Shown piece by piece: positions 2,449 through 13,655 of a DNA stretch of 33,372 nucleotides. Position 1 is the stretch's first letter; the number at the start of each line of letters is the position of its first letter. A model generated the notes under the pieces. It worked only from the letters and a program-made list of their open reading frames with translations. It did no database searches and was not told the DNA's origin. Where the stretch lies: positions 1 through 33,372 of the IMG/VR virus record IMGVR_UViG_3300005525_000065; one strand, given 5' to 3'. A program made the translations under genes and the position numbers. This DNA comes from a virus.

Positions 2449-3942
2449 TCATGTGTCGCCGTCCTCGCTCTTGCTGCCGCCAAAGTGCCGGCCAAAGCGG
2501 GCCATGTCGCTCTCAAAGGCCGCGCAGCTTTCCTTGGCCCACTCACCCATGGTCTGGCCGTCTGGTGGCCCGGCCTCGCCAGGTATCCACACGCGGATGG
2601 CCTGCTTGCCGTTCTGCCCCTGGTCCAGCTTCACGCTGTGGCAGCGCAGCTTGCCGCGTGCCGCCTTCTCCACGCCCTTGCTGAAGACCACCTGCGCTGG
2701 TGGAAAGCGCTCACCCGTGGCCTGGGCCCAGCGCTGAAAGGCGCGGTAGAGCTGCTCGGTGCTGCATACCCTCAGAGGGAGGGGGAGATAACCCGCCACC
2801 CATTCGCGCACGAAGCGCTCCTGCGGGCGCAGGCCCAGCTCGATCAGGTCTTCTTTGGCCCGCGTCATGGGCGGGATCTGGAACTCGTCAAACCCGTCCA
2901 GCGGCAGCGTCATGAGGAACTCATAGAACGCCTGCGCGCCGCCGTTGGCCAGGCACTGCGCCACGCGGGCGTACAGGCCCTGCTCATCGCGCGGCGGGGT
3001 GTAGACCACCATGTACCGCCGGTCGCCCGGCTCCAGGGCCAGGGGCTGCTGCTCGTTGCTGAGGAACACCACATTGCAGTGGTTGGACTCGGTGCGCAGC
3101 GGCATCATCTTGGCGTTGATCTGGATCGTCTCGCCCGTGATGAAGCTCTTGAGCTTGTTCTTGTGGTGGTACAGCTCGGCCCGCGCCACCACCTCGTCCC
3201 CGATCAGAAACAGCTTCATGCTGGCCCAGTCGTTGAACTTGTCTTCGAGCTGGTCCTGCCCCACCACCAGGGCATATTTGCCGTAGATGCCGGCCACGAT
3301 CTCGAACAGCAGGTTCTTGCCCGCGCCCTGCGGGCCGTGAAACACCAGCGCGCTGCGCATCTTGGCGCCGGGGCGCTGCAGCGGCAGGGCCAGCCAGCGC
3401 AGCACCCAGGCGCACACCTCGGCGCAGCCCTCAGGCGTGGCTGCGCTCTCGCCGCACAGGTACTGCAGCAGCTCGATGATGGCGCGGCAGTCGCCCTTCT
3501 TCGGCTGCATCTCGAAGCCGTCGAACAGGTTGATGCAGGGCGCCTCGAGCTCGCGCCCGGGCTCGAACTGCAGCTCCTCGGGCTTGACCATGCGCCGCTC
3601 CGGGCTGTTGAGCCAGGCCTTCACGGCGTCATTCGTCATGGCCAGGCGCAGCGCGTTGACGGGCACGATGCGCCGCGTCTCGTCGTCCCACACGGTCTGC
3701 GTGCCGTAGATCAGCGCAAAGCTCTCCAGCAGCCGGCCCACCGCGCCCGGGTTGGCCATGCGGGCCTTGCGCGGGCGGCCTGGTGCGGGTGCGCGTGGGC
3801 GCTTGCCCTCCACGCCGGCCATGCGCACCAGTTGCGACAGCAGCTCATGCAGGCCCCCTCCCCCCTCGCTGGGCGCGTTTGCGCCGGCCGGTGGGGTGGG
3901 AGGTTCTTCTGCCATTCGGATGACGTTGTCAGGCTGCGACAT
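2449..3942 (-). CDS. Phage SF3-type replicative helicase (DUF5906 family)
   Basis: This 497-residue protein probably unwinds phage DNA at the origin. The Walker A loop GPQGAGKN is at about residues 204-211, after the segment SALVFH. A Walker B-like hydrophobic strand ending in acid (LFLIGDE) follows about 40 residues on. Later SNEQQPL and RRY segments resemble the sensor and arginine-finger region of superfamily 3 helicases of the primase-helicase DUF5906 type. The N-terminal 60 residues are Pro/Gly-rich and probably disordered. The gene overlaps the Toprim primase by 14 bases, so the two form a split primase-helicase pair. The candidate origin begins just past its stop codon. No DNA polymerase or dedicated initiator gene is visible. 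Confidence 0.85.
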   Translation of the reverse strand: MSQPDNVIRMAEEPPTPPAGANAPSEGGGGLHELLSQLVRMAGVEGKRPRAPAPGRPRKARMANPGAVGRLLESFALIYGTQTVWDDETRRIVPVNALRLAMTNDAVKAWLNSPERRMVKPEELQFEPGRELEAPCINLFDGFEMQPKKGDCRAIIELLQYLCGESAATPEGCAEVCAWVLRWLALPLQRPGAKMRSALVFHGPQGAGKNLLFEIVAGIYGKYALVVGQDQLEDKFNDWASMKLFLIGDEVVARAELYHHKNKLKSFITGETIQINAKMMPLRTESNHCNVVFLSNEQQPLALEPGDRRYMVVYTPPRDEQGLYARVAQCLANGGAQAFYEFLMTLPLDGFDEFQIPPMTRAKEDLIELGLRPQERFVREWVAGYLPLPLRVCSTEQLYRAFQRWAQATGERFPPAQVVFSKGVEKAARGKLRCHSVKLDQGQNGKQAIRVWIPGEAGPPDGQTMGEWAKESCAAFESDMARFGRHFGGSKSEDGDT

Positions 3943-4912
3943 TCAGCGATTCCGTGAGGATTTCCGAGCCGAGTACGTAGAACGCGTGCCGCAGCTGCCG
4001 CCGCACCACGCCCAGGCCTGCACTCAAGTGCAGGTCGTTGAAATCCGTGTCCTTGGGGCCACGGGGCATGCGGGCCCAGATCGGCCAGGTGTAGTGGCAG
4101 TCCTCCACCGCACGGCTGGCCTGGTGCGCCTTCAGCCGGCCAGGGTTGCCCTCGGTGCGCCAGTCGTCGTCGGCGCAGATCAGCAGCGGGCTGTGCGGGT
4201 GCAGGCCGCGCAGCAGCTGCGCCACGTGCAGCAGGTTGCCCGCGTCCAGGCCCACAAACACGGGCAGCTTGCGGTCCACCGCCATGCGCAGGCTCAGGCC
4301 CGTGGCCCAGCCCTCGCAGATCAGCAGCGGCTCGCCCACCACCACGTGGCCCAGGCGCAGGCAGCAGCCCGGCTTCTCAAAGCCGCGGGTGAAGCGCTTG
4401 CTGCCATCAGGGCGGATCACCTGCAGCGCCTTGAGCGCCTGGTCGCGCGGCAGGTCATAGCGCAGCAGCGGGATGACGATGGAGCCGTCGCGCAGGTAGC
4501 GGCAGCCCTCGGCCTGCACGGCCTTGCGCTGGAGGTAGGGCACCTGGCCGATCGGTTCACGCGCGGCGCTGGCCCACAGATCGGCAGCCGTCATGGCGGC
4601 CTGGGCGGCGGCAGCGGCGCGGGCTTGGGCGTCGGCCTCGGCCTGCGCCTGGCGGCGGGCCTGCAGCGAGTCACGCTCGGCCTGGCTGATGCCCTGCCAG
4701 TCCACCTCCACGCGGTGGCTCTCCTGGCCGCGCCAGTTGCCAAAGCTGCCGGTCACCACAAACGTGCCGGCATCGGTGCGCACCTCGCGCAGGCGGTACC
4801 AGTGCGTCTTCTTCGGGCCAAAGCGCCGCACGCGGCCGGTCAGGTCCAGCGGCAGGGGCGGCACCTCCAGCCCTGCTGCCAGCATCTGGCCGACCACGTC
4901 TTGAGGGTTCAC
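3929..4912 (-). CDS. Toprim-domain phage DNA primase
   Basis: This 327-residue protein probably lays down RNA primers for phage replication. The C-terminal half carries a Toprim-like fold: LLICEGWATGLSLR supplies the conserved Glu at about residue 200, and LLICADDDWR supplies the Asp cluster at about residue 245. The N-terminal third includes an Ala/Gln-rich helical stretch (residues about 85-110) and a middle segment common to phage Toprim_3 primases (YLRDGSIVIPLLRYD). No zinc-finger is seen. The start is GTG, overlapping the preceding stop as GTGA. It is co-transcribed with the SF3 helicase and overlaps it. Family is recognised from motifs; priming activity is inferred. Confidence 0.8.
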   Translation of the reverse strand: MNPQDVVGQMLAAGLEVPPLPLDLTGRVRRFGPKKTHWYRLREVRTDAGTFVVTGSFGNWRGQESHRVEVDWQGISQAERDSLQARRQAQAEADAQARAAAAAQAAMTAADLWASAAREPIGQVPYLQRKAVQAEGCRYLRDGSIVIPLLRYDLPRDQALKALQVIRPDGSKRFTRGFEKPGCCLRLGHVVVGEPLLICEGWATGLSLRMAVDRKLPVFVGLDAGNLLHVAQLLRGLHPHSPLLICADDDWRTEGNPGRLKAHQASRAVEDCHYTWPIWARMPRGPKDTDFNDLHLSAGLGVVRRQLRHAFYVLGSEILTESLNVAA

Positions 4913-5952: not shown

Positions 5953-5955
5953 GGT

Positions 5956-6249
5956 TCAAGCAGCCTCCTGCGCCGCCACCTGCGGCCGCGCGATGTCGAT
6001 GACGGGCCGGCCGGCGGGGTGGGGCCAGGCGGGGTCGGGGATGCGGGCCCAGTGCACGTCGGGGCGCAGGGTCTCGACGGTGACGGTGGCCTGCGTGGCG
6101 CGCTCGATGGCGGGGCAGCGCTCGCCAGGAATTTTGCGAACCCCAGCCACCCACTGGCTCACTGCTGCGGATGAAACGCCAAGTGCGGCAGCCAAAGCCG
6201 ACGGGCCTCCCGCTGCGCGCACAGCTGTTGCTGAAGGGTTTTCTTTCAT
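5956..6249 (-). CDS. Cro/YdaS-like transcriptional regulator
   Basis: This 97-residue protein has a helix-turn-helix at about residues 15-40 (ALAAALGVSSAAVSQWVAG), of the YdaS/Cro type. The ending WxRIPDPAWPHPAGRPVIDI resembles the tails of many prophage Cro-like proteins. It is divergent from the CI-like repressor with a 72 bp operator region between them, and it heads the leftward lytic genes. Its role is presumably to shut off the repressor and tune early transcription. A possible -10 (TACTAT on the minus strand, 6256-6261) ends only six bases before the ATG, so the mRNA could be leaderless. Some relatives are called YdaS antitoxins, but no toxin partner is visible. Confidence 0.8.
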   Translation of the reverse strand: MKENPSATAVRAAGGPSALAAALGVSSAAVSQWVAGVRKIPGERCPAIERATQATVTVETLRPDVHWARIPDPAWPHPAGRPVIDIARPQVAAQEAA

Positions 6250-6321
6250 GCGGGAATAGTAGCACTGCTAAATGCTATTCCGCAAGCCCCGCTAAAACTG
6301 CCGCGCTCTAGCATTGCTTAC
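6250..6321. promoter_or_regulatory. Divergent promoter/operator region between Cro and repressor
   Basis: A perfect palindrome TAGCACTGCTA (6260-6270) lies over the likely Cro promoter: minus-strand TTGCGG at 6280-6285, an 18 bp spacer, TACTAT at 6256-6261. A second near-copy, TAGCATTGCTT, lies at 6309-6319 beside the repressor start. A further TGCTA half-site occurs at 6273-6277. GGAATAG (6253-6259) and CTATTCC (6275-6281) form a flanking inverted repeat. Both start codons lie six to seven bases from the -10-like boxes. The sites are read directly; binding is inferred. Confidence 0.65.
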
Positions 6322-6783
6322 ATGGAATCTGACCACCAGCAGGAGGGGCAGCGGCTTGCGCAGTTGCTGGCTCGAAGCGGCATCACCAACAAGGCCGAAT
6401 TCGCACGCGACTGGAAGCTCAAGGGCGGCGCGTCCATGCTCTCGCAGCACATCTCGGGCAATCGCCCGATCTCGCTGGACGCGGCCGTCGTTTACTGCAC
6501 GGCCTTGCGGGTGCCGCTGGAGGAGGTGTCGCCCAGCATTGCCGAGCAGGTGCGCATCGCAGCCAGACTGCTGCGGCCTAGCTTAGGCGTCCATGAACCT
6601 GAGCTGGCCAGTCCTGTCGCCGCGCTTCCTTCCCGGGCCTCTTGGCCGCACAGAGCAATCACTGAGCGGGAATGGCACCAGCTCACCCCAGACGAGCGCC
6701 TAGAAGTAGAAGGCGCCATGCTCAAGGAATACGGCCGGGTCCGCAAGGAGCGAGGCGCACAGCAAAGACGCGGAGCGGCGTGA
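6322..6783 (+). CDS. CI-like phage repressor (HTH, no peptidase domain)
   Basis: This 153-residue protein has an N-terminal DNA-binding region at about residues 10-70 (AEFARDWKLKGGASMLSQHISGNRPISL), of the kind found in phage repressors that begin with a P22 C2-like helix-turn-helix. The PLEEVSPSIA segment is also typical. The C-terminal half lacks the Ser/Lys S24 peptidase seen in LexA-type repressors, so induction would not use RecA-stimulated self-cleavage. It ends in a basic tail. It is divergent from Cro and upstream of the early operon. No Shine-Dalgarno precedes the ATG, and TAGCAT at 6309-6314 could be a -10, so the transcript may be leaderless like lambda PRM cI. The operators TAGCRNTGCTA are its likely targets. 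Confidence 0.75.
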   Translation: MESDHQQEGQRLAQLLARSGITNKAEFARDWKLKGGASMLSQHISGNRPISLDAAVVYCTALRVPLEEVSPSIAEQVRIAARLLRPSLGVHEPELASPVAALPSRASWPHRAITEREWHQLTPDERLEVEGAMLKEYGRVRKERGAQQRRGAA

Positions 6784-6791
6784 CGCAAAGC

Positions 6792-6810
6792 GCCAAGGTC
6801 TATCCTTGGC
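6792..6810 (+). other. Hairpin after the repressor gene
   Basis: GCCAAGG (6792-6798) and CCTTGGC (6804-6810) form a perfect 7 bp stem with loop TCTAT, eight bases after the repressor stop. There is no following T-run, so it is not a standard intrinsic terminator. It might stabilise or weakly end the repressor mRNA. Confidence 0.4.
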
Positions 6811-6881
6811 CAAATCGCCACGGTTGCCATCCCCCAAAGGTTATAGACACACCGCGCAGAAGCTGATTTCGAAAAAGCATG

Positions 6882-6921
6882 TAGCGTTGCTATTGCTCAA
6901 ACCATAAAGCGTTGCTAACAT
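6882..6921 (+). promoter_or_regulatory. Early-operon promoter with two operators
   Basis: TAGCGTTGCTA (6882-6892) and AAGCGTTGCTA (6907-6917) are copies of the operator family seen between Cro and the repressor, set 25 bp apart in the same orientation. Between and over them is a possible promoter: TTGCTC (6893-6898), 17 bp spacer, TAACAT (6916-6921). The first gene, with a GGAGG ribosome-binding site, starts at 6970. By analogy with lambda PL, this promoter would be repressed in the lysogen. The -35/-10 match is modest. Confidence 0.55.
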
Positions 6922-6969
6922 TCGCATCCACGCCCCAAGACAACGGCACAGCCGGGGGCGGAGGATGCG

Positions 6970-7101
6970 ATGGACAACCTGCACCCCGACCTGGCGGCCC
7001 TGGCCGCCGCCCTGGCCGCTGACGCTGCCGAGCACGCCCGCGTTGAACAAGCCACCGCCTTTGCCCGCGCCTGGGCTGCGGTGGGGGAGGCGTTGCTGTG
7101 A
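6970..7101 (+). CDS. Small Ala-rich helical protein, first gene of the early operon
   Basis: This 43-residue protein (MDNLHPDLAALAAALAADA at its start) is almost entirely predicted helix and rich in Ala. GGAGG five bases before the ATG is the strongest ribosome-binding site in the operon. The stop overlaps the next start as GTGA. There is no domain or named relative I recognise. It is the first gene after the operator-controlled promoter, so it would be expressed very early. Confidence 0.6.
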   Translation: MDNLHPDLAALAAALAADAAEHARVEQATAFARAWAAVGEALL

Positions 7102-7484
7102 GCCGCGCCCGCACAGAGCAGATCGCCAGCGTGCTGCTGGCCGCCGCCATCGGCGTGCTCTTTGCCGCTGCCGTCGTCCACTGGATTGACCTGGAAGGCA
7201 TCACCAGCGGCCAGGCCGCGCACGCCGCTGGCCTGCTGGCCCTGCCCGGGCAGTGGCTGCGCCGCTACTGGGCCTGGGCGCGGCACCACGTGCGCCTGGA
7301 CACCAACCGCCGGCAGCTCAAGTGGATCGAGGAAGACATCCAGCACATGGAGTCTGAGCTGGCCTTCCTGCCGCAGCACATCCGCTACCTGCGCGGCGAG
7401 GCGGCGCGGCTGCGCGTGTGCATTGCCGTGGCCGAGCGCCAGGGCCCGCAGCTGCCGCCCGCCCACACGGAGCCCCAGCCATGA
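7098..7484 (+). CDS. Single-pass membrane protein with coiled-coil tail
   Basis: This 128-residue protein starts at GTG. Residues about 9-30 form one strongly hydrophobic segment (IASVLLAAAIGVLFAAAVV), preceded by Arg residues, so the short N-terminus is probably cytoplasmic. The region after residue 60 is charged and helical (RRQLKWIEEDIQHMESELAFL) and could be a coiled coil. A membrane protein made early may alter the envelope, for example in superinfection exclusion, but nothing specific in the sequence shows that. It overlaps both neighbours by four bases. Confidence 0.65.
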   Translation: MSRARTEQIASVLLAAAIGVLFAAAVVHWIDLEGITSGQAAHAAGLLALPGQWLRRYWAWARHHVRLDTNRRQLKWIEEDIQHMESELAFLPQHIRYLRGEAARLRVCIAVAERQGPQLPPAHTEPQP

Positions 7485-7885
7485 GCGCCTGGGTGCAGGG
7501 CGTGGTGGAGCGCACCTTCCGCTGCAGCAGCATCGCCCCGTCTGCACCCGGCGTGGTGCAGGCCCAGGTGCGGGTGGTGATCCGCCAGCACGCCATGGCC
7601 GGGCCGCGCGTGCACGCCCTGCTGAGCTGCGGCTATGGCGAGGCGGGCGAGCAAACCGCCGCCCTGCTGCGCAAGCGCCTGAAGGCCGGCCGCGCCTGCA
7701 CCGCGCAGGGCAAGTGGCTGGCGCCCCTGCAGCAGAGCATGGACCTGCTGCTGGTGGGGTGCTATGAGATCCACACGGATGAAGACGCGGCCACGCATGC
7801 CGAGGCTGAAGCATTGATCGGGGCGGGTGCCTCTGGGAGCACCCGGGGGGTGCAACACCCGCCCCACCTGGAGGCTATGGCATGA
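7481..7885 (+). CDS. Hypothetical early protein
   Basis: This 134-residue protein is of unknown function. The first 60 residues look beta-rich (VVERTFRCSSIAP, VVQAQVRVVIRQH). A Gly-containing, basic middle region follows (LLRKRLKAGRACTAQGKW), then a hydrophobic strand (MDLLLVGCYEI) and a variable polar tail. The pattern could fit a small OB-like or nucleic-acid-binding fold, but I recognise no family. It is coupled to both neighbours through four-base ATGA overlaps. Confidence 0.6.
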   Translation: MSAWVQGVVERTFRCSSIAPSAPGVVQAQVRVVIRQHAMAGPRVHALLSCGYGEAGEQTAALLRKRLKAGRACTAQGKWLAPLQQSMDLLLVGCYEIHTDEDAATHAEAEALIGAGASGSTRGVQHPPHLEAMA

Positions 7886-12611: not shown

Positions 12612-13631
12612 CTAACGATGCAAATCTTCCGGCCGCAGGTTGGTGTACCGCCGAAGGTGCCGCCAATCCTTGTGGCCGGTCACCAGGGCCACCTGCTGCA
12701 CCTCGTAGCCGGCCTCAAAGAGGCGCGAGGTGCCCTCATGCCGCAGGTCATGAAAATGCAAGTTCGGGATGGCCAGCGCCTGGCAGGCCCAGCGGAAATA
12801 CTTGCTCAGCGTCTGCTCATGCAGCGGAAAGATCAGCTCACCCTCGCGGGGCTGGCGCTGCAGCAGCGTCCAGGCGTCCCCCAGTAGCGGGATCCACTCG
12901 TCGTTGCCCAGCTTGCGCCGCGGGTGCTTACGGTCACGCACCAGTACCAGGCGCTTGGCTTCATCCACATCATCCCAGCGCAGGCGCACGATCTCGCCGC
13001 GCCGCATGGCCGTCAGCACCGCAAAGCGCACCACGTCGGCAAAGGCCTGACCGTGCTGCGCCTGCAGGTAGTCCACCAGGCGCTGCAGCTCGTCCTCGGT
13101 CGGCCGGCGCTCGCGCTTGCCGCCGCCACCAATCAGCCCCAGGTGTGACAGCAGCGGCCGCGCCTGGCCCACCACATCAGGCAGCGTGAGCTTCTTGGCC
13201 AGGGCCGCGTAGCGCAGCACGGTGCCGAGCTTGCCGATGTCCATGTTGCAGGTGTAGGGCCCGGCGCCTTCGTCTTTGCGGGCTGAGCAGTAGCCCACCA
13301 GGTCCTGAGCGGTCAGCCTCAGCACATCACGCGCGCCGAGGTGGTGGTCCAGGTGGTTGAGCGTGTAGTGCTCGGTCGAACTGTCGCTGATGGGCCGCGC
13401 CTGGTCGCGCAGCTCTCGGTAGGTCTTGATCAGGTCAGCCAACAGCACCACGCGGCTCACGGCGGCCGCCGGCGAGCCTGCGCCCACCTGCCCTCGATCG
13501 ATGTCCACCTCCAGCTGCCGCGCCCAGCGCTCGGCCGCCGATTTGGTGGTGAAGGTGCGCGTGTAGACTGGCTGCCCCTTGCGCCGCACCTGCGCCCGCC
13601 ACTTGCCCTTGACCTCGATGATGCTAGCCAC
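12612..13631 (-). CDS. int: Tyrosine-family phage integrase
   Basis: This protein integrates and, with Xis, excises the phage. It has 339 residues if translation begins at the GTG at 13631, giving the family-typical opening (V/M)ASIIEVKGKWRAQVRRKG. A TTG eight codons upstream would add an atypical leader. Numbered from that GTG, the N-terminal arm-binding domain spans about residues 1-50, the core-binding domain about 60-165, and the catalytic domain the rest. Catalytic residues are Arg211 (AMRRGEI), His294 and Arg297 (HDLRH), His320 (TGHKD) and nucleophile Tyr329 (RRYTNL). All are intact. AAAGG lies nine bases upstream of the GTG. An inverted repeat and TAGCA-type repeats begin 25 bases upstream. 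Confidence 0.9.
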   Translation of the reverse strand: MASIIEVKGKWRAQVRRKGQPVYTRTFTTKSAAERWARQLEVDIDRGQVGAGSPAAAVSRVVLLADLIKTYRELRDQARPISDSSTEHYTLNHLDHHLGARDVLRLTAQDLVGYCSARKDEGAGPYTCNMDIGKLGTVLRYAALAKKLTLPDVVGQARPLLSHLGLIGGGGKRERRPTEDELQRLVDYLQAQHGQAFADVVRFAVLTAMRRGEIVRLRWDDVDEAKRLVLVRDRKHPRRKLGNDEWIPLLGDAWTLLQRQPREGELIFPLHEQTLSKYFRWACQALAIPNLHFHDLRHEGTSRLFEAGYEVQQVALVTGHKDWRHLRRYTNLRPEDLHR

Positions 13632-13655
13632 AGCGCCCCGCCTTTGCTGACCCAA

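Follow-up and report, generated by a model that had tools for sequence, protein, structure and literature searches.

A probable lambda-type immunity region with one predicted operator family at both early control regions of a temperate phage

Introduction

In phage lambda, the cI and cro genes are divergent and a three-site operator, OR, lies between them; a second multi-site operator, OL, lies at the early promoter beyond cI, which is read in the cI direction. Looping of the DNA between OR and OL is established in lambda, and the S24-type C-terminal domain is the part of lambda CI that forms the octamer.

The switch of phage 933W carries five repressor operators across OR and OL, as described in excerpts of PMC3317979. 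Lambdoid repressors without self-cleavage are known, and in Gifsy phages induction is performed by antirepressors (both from passages of PMC3121763). Non-proteolytic CI repressors require additional factors, according to an extract of PMC10432266.

Here we describe a virus record in its full length of 33,372 bases, referred to as the window. The region 5956-6783 together with OL is, with high likelihood, a lambda-type immunity region, in which CI and probably also Cro would recognise the palindrome WAGCNNNGCTW at OR and OL. A single operator family thus very probably serves both early promoters.

Results

Genome context and regulators

The window encodes a tyrosine integrase (12612-13655, minus strand; PF00589, E 1.5e-24), and the phage is therefore temperate. 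Minus-strand genes past cro include primase parts, and the plus-strand genes past OL include small genes and a nucleotide kinase. The first small gene downstream of the putative promoter PL (6970-7101, plus strand; 43 aa, MDNLHPDL...) is conserved across operator types. Two overlapping minus-strand ORFs, 2449-3942 and 3929-4912, match the same primase family, phrog_2249, the former in its C-terminal and the latter in its N-terminal part; the primase may be split, may be made by programmed frameshifting, or may appear in two pieces through a sequencing error.

The cro-like gene (5956-6249, minus strand) encodes 97 aa, with a helix-turn-helix in the N-terminal half and a constant C-terminal tail. 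The protein matches Pfam YdaS_toxin (E 6.8e-24; 83.9 bits against a cut-off of 30) and P22_Cro (E 2.8e-10; 40.2 bits against a cut-off of 30.2), PHROG 35 transcriptional repressor (E 7.6e-18) and the solved Cro protein 3bd1 (E 1.3e-10). For this member of the YdaS/P22_Cro family, location opposite cI favours a function as Cro. An alignment of 11 sequences with differing operator types shows a near-constant C-terminal half and a wholly different DNA-reading half. The near-constant tail (5955-6132 in the window) is common to L011, L013, L014, L016, L018 and L022, and it may bind something that all these phages share.

The cI-like repressor gene (6322-6783, plus strand) encodes 153 aa, comprising a lambda-CI-like DNA-binding domain (residues about 4-84), a low-confidence linker and a C-terminal helix. 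The match to PHROG 4 transcriptional repressor is weak (E 5.4e-4). In the AlphaFold2 model, block pLDDT is 92-97 across residues 11-80, and the best PDB match is the N-terminal domain of lambda repressor (E 1e-3, probability 1.00). No S24 peptidase domain was matched by Pfam in this protein or elsewhere in the window, in a search in which the controls matched; the domain is present in six of nine relative repressors (ten proteins scanned, the window CI included). Induction by RecA-stimulated self-cleavage is therefore unlikely for the window CI, and induction of this phage probably differs from that of lambda. An antirepressor or another route would be the likeliest replacement for self-cleavage. 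The window holds no LexA-like box of the form CTGT-N8-ACAG.

Operator sites and promoters

An earlier note on this DNA described four strings fitting TAGCRNTGCTA, at 6260-6270, 6309-6319, 6882-6892 and 6907-6917. All four are present at these coordinates, and the genome-wide scan that it proposed, run with at most one mismatch, matches those four places only (seven matches when counted by strand, where 1.46 are expected; none of 100 shuffles reaches seven). The note placed two sites at the Cro/repressor divergence. Sites of the same family do lie there, but they are three rather than two, all inside the 72-bp gap. The overlooked fifth site, AAGCCCCGCTA (6284-6294), sits midway between the first two; it departs from the earlier consensus in the central RNT and fits WAGCNNNGCTW.

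This wider motif has exactly five matches in the 33,372 bases, starting at 6260, 6284, 6309, 6882 and 6907. The first three lie between cro and cI at spacings of 24 and 25 bp and constitute the predicted OR; the last two, with a spacing of 25 bp, form the predicted OL at the early promoter on the far side of cI. Dinucleotide shuffles give a mean of 1.05 matches and a maximum of 4, with none of 200 reaching at least five and never more than two per 700 bp; among 64 half-sites of the same form, WAGCNNNGCTW alone exceeds two in any 700 bp. As the motif was derived from the sites themselves, these chance figures are conditional, and the independent test lies in the relatives. Sixteen other records (14 to 61 kb) contain 2 to 11 exact matches in total, operators included, so that the operators are marked by clustering and spacing and not by absolute uniqueness. 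Five variants of the operator words, searched exactly, gave no match in phage-operator papers, within the titles and opening abstract text of an open literature that most subscription journals fall outside.

OR1, TAGCACTGCTA (6260-6270), overlaps the -10 box of the putative cro promoter PR (6256-6285, minus strand; -35 TTGCGG at 6285-6280, 18-bp spacer, -10 TACTAT at 6261-6256), OR2 overlaps its -35 box, and two bases separate OR3, TAGCATTGCTT (6309-6319), from the cI start codon. We infer the position of PR from reading the sequence and matching it to relatives. The first OL site, TAGCGTTGCTA (6882-6892), adjoins the -35 box of the putative PL on its upstream side (6893-6921, plus strand; -35 TTGCTC at 6893-6898, 17-bp spacer, -10 TAACAT at 6916-6921), and the second, AAGCGTTGCTA (6907-6917), overlaps the -10 box. 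PL is weak on its own and is aligned with TTGAC or similar boxes at the equivalent place in relatives. A scan of 6150-7010 with strict consensus models found no promoter and no terminator. The putative -10 boxes lie very near the start codons of cro (6247-6261) and cI (6309-6322), and no ribosome site was seen before either ATG; the cro and cI messages may be leaderless. The centre of OR2 lies 33 bp ahead of the cI start codon (the start site itself being unproven), a position that does not readily suggest activation of cI from OR2 in the manner of lambda.

Operators in related loci

Relatives were picked by a scan with aligned CI proteins, not by the DNA motif, giving 17 loci. Three of these (L048-L050) are the contigs L005-L007, of which L006 and L007 are near copies of L005 with the same five sites. 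In these contigs the sites are the same as in the window and the bases between them are altered; OR1 is kept despite changes on both flanks. An inverted repeat, GGAATAG...CTATTCC (6253-6282), frames OR1 in the window and is missing from L005-L007. In each of the other 14 loci (L051-L064), the 150 bp upstream of the CI match hold exactly three sites, at spacings of 23-24 and then 25 bp.

Together with the window, L005, L085 and Acidovorax phage AP1 (L091), these 14 form a set of 18 loci, which includes close relatives (L056 and L058-L060; L051 and L052; the window and L005) and hence represents fewer independent lineages. All 18 have three OR sites, a counterpart of OR2 in the same operator class among them, and all 18 have an OL pair, at 25 bp in 17 and at 22 bp in L063. 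In 17 of the 18 the first OL site runs straight into TTG; in L063 the box begins within the site. For these counts the outer operator bases were relaxed, a G being needed for the OR of L085 and for one OL site in L053, L057, L062, L085 and AP1. In L056, L058, L059 and L060 (4.0-5.9 kb) a third OL site lies 22 bp upstream of the pair, giving three plus three.

The operators of L085 end in G (TAGCNNNGCTG) and its CI recognition segment has V for L, and L035 has a 12-bp operator form with the OL pair TAGCGTTTGCTA. A fine-scale recognition code is a possible reading of these two variants. L035 was excluded from the tests below since, despite its OL pair, no Cro match was found; L024, L027 and L079 were excluded because their OL is not clear.

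The earlier note had also suggested that paired distant sites could support looping. A DNA loop of about 570 bp bridged by CI between OR and OL would agree with the presence of the same operators on either side of cI in every class-A locus examined, as in lambda. However, the OR3-OL1 distance, centre to centre, is 573 bp in the window, 560 in L085, 832 in L005, 1767 in AP1, about 3.2 kb in L064 and about 5.2 kb in L057; it is not conserved, and a fixed helical phase is absent. The window CI also lacks the S24-type C-terminal domain through which lambda CI forms its octamer. These features are compatible with looping all the same, and we hold a loop in this phage to be possible but less likely than not.

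Operator classes and their exchange

OR and OL change together and in step with the DNA-reading heads of Cro and CI. L011, L018 and L031, whose heads are different in both proteins, have TAGGNNNNCCTA-like operators at OR as well as OL. The best-pair similarity of OL and OR is 19-23 in the 16 cells of class A (window, L067, L071 and L085) and 20-23 in the nine cells of class B (L068, L078 and L031), compared with 16-18 in all 24 cells between the two classes. When about 3,160 positions are ranked by similarity to a type's own OR, its OL comes first in 9 of 15 types; the window OL ranks 14th of 3,163 positions and that of L083 ranks 77th. In the eight types outside classes A and B, several foreign ORs score equal to the own one. 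A plain 12-mer comparison of OL with OR gives a mean of 19.9 for own pairs and 17.8 for others, the own pair not being best for most types; this test is blurred because promoter letters are shared, and it separates classes A and B only.

The two regulators follow the operators to different degrees. In class A the CI recognition segment GG-SMLSQ is near-invariant with one operator, and the Cro heads vary more. This pattern would fit a division of labour in which only one protein uses all five sites, with CI on OR and OL, Cro on OR alone or on a subset, and OL a pure lysogeny-maintenance operator; the Cro of phage PY54 is reported, in the portion of the literature consulted, to bind a single operator site. 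On the other hand, Cro heads broadly track the operator class, mostly containing QW in class A (L054 is an exception) and being of other kinds in other classes, and the cassette boundary described below holds the Cro head together with OR and OL. An OL reserved for CI thus appears unlikely, though it deserves some weight, and we favour binding of the WAGCNNNGCTW sites by Cro as well as CI as the probable reading.

The boundaries of the exchangeable unit are visible in blastn comparisons with two phages whose Cro/CI DNA-reading heads differ from those of the window. The window matches L029 at 5962-6123 (97.5%) and 6925-7782 (96.5%), and L030 at 5955-6132 (95.5%) and 6915-7792 (95.4%), in each case with no match between. 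The block that has been exchanged thus comprises the Cro head, OR, cI and OL, and the breakpoints delimit an exchangeable immunity cassette at 6124-6924 that contains the DNA-reading half of Cro. L031 and L032 are 99.4% identical on one flank and nearly 100% immediately past OL (outer flanks 95-100%), with divergent islands at the Cro head, OR and CI head and again at OL; the C-terminal part of CI between these islands is about 80% identical. Two separate exchanges were considered for this pair and dropped, given a middle of about 80% against flanks of 95-100%, for which a single exchanged block, with C-terminal CI parts that are related, is the simpler account. The leader sequence, scanned against bacterial genomes, matched once, in Parvularcula (L047), which we took as chance.

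Homology breakpoints adjoining OL are also what would be expected if the repeats were recombination joints, or promoter-associated palindromes of an incidental kind, instead of protein sites. Yet the motif is swapped together with the regulator heads, its spacing is fixed at 22-25 bp, and it recurs in other phages chosen by CI protein alone, which makes this explanation very improbable.

Discussion

The earlier note claimed a single operator family for the two early control regions, arranged as OR and OL are in lambda, the second of them past the repressor gene. This claim is borne out by the sites, by the relatives and by the joint change of operators and proteins. From this arrangement we infer binding and repression as follows. 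OR1, OR2 and OR3 would cover PR and the start of cI, and the OL pair would cover PL of a second early operon beyond cI. In a lysogen, CI at OR1/OR2 and at the OL pair would shut both early operons, and occupancy of OR3 would shut cI. Cro would occupy the same sites early in lytic growth.

On balance, we consider that in this phage group the whole of the immunity specificity (the Cro DNA-reading head, OR, cI and OL) travels as a single natural cassette. Its borders would fall shortly inside the cro gene and a few bases past OL and the -10 box of PL, so that phages with near-identical early genes could become heteroimmune in one exchange. As part of the same, somewhat favoured proposal, S24 repressors would act on the WAGCNNNGCTW set in some phages and short repressors lacking S24 in others, and the induction trigger could thus change with the operators untouched.

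The sites define an operator class that was not found in the literature searched; with its matching CI head, it extends over phages from metagenomes, further virus records and a single named phage. The matched classes lend themselves naturally to assigning operator bases to the CI and Cro residues that read them. Where a short helical tail takes the place of S24 and the operators stay unchanged, it can be tested how a lysogeny switch survives when its induction mechanism is replaced.

Comparison with known systems

Lambda-type organisation is already known, and the window phage adds a further case. It shares with lambda the divergent cI- and cro-like genes, the three-site OR and a same-family OL at the early promoter beyond cI, and the DNA-binding domain of lambda CI is the best structural match of the window CI. 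It differs from lambda in its operator, the 11-bp WAGCNNNGCTW, in having two OL sites, in a CI without S24 and in a Cro of the P22/YdaS kind. Because its CI lacks S24, the window is best described as organised like lambda, which is not to say that it has the same induction.

Like 933W, the window has five operators over OR and OL; the operators and the repressor are different, and the 933W repressor is reported as non-cooperative in excerpts of PMC3317979. Gifsy-type lambdoid prophages likewise have a repressor without self-cleavage, and heteroimmune relatives that arise by shuffled immunity regions, as far as passages of PMC3121763 describe them. Those prophages have antirepressors, and the window differs in its lack of the LexA-like box CTGT-N8-ACAG.

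Acidovorax phage AP1 (OM049504.1) has a CI of 254 aa with a longer C-terminal part and an OR-OL distance of about 1.8 kb, in which it is unlike the window. It nevertheless has the three OR sites, an OL pair at 25 bp around TTGACA, and a CI DNA-reading head that is the same as that of the window.
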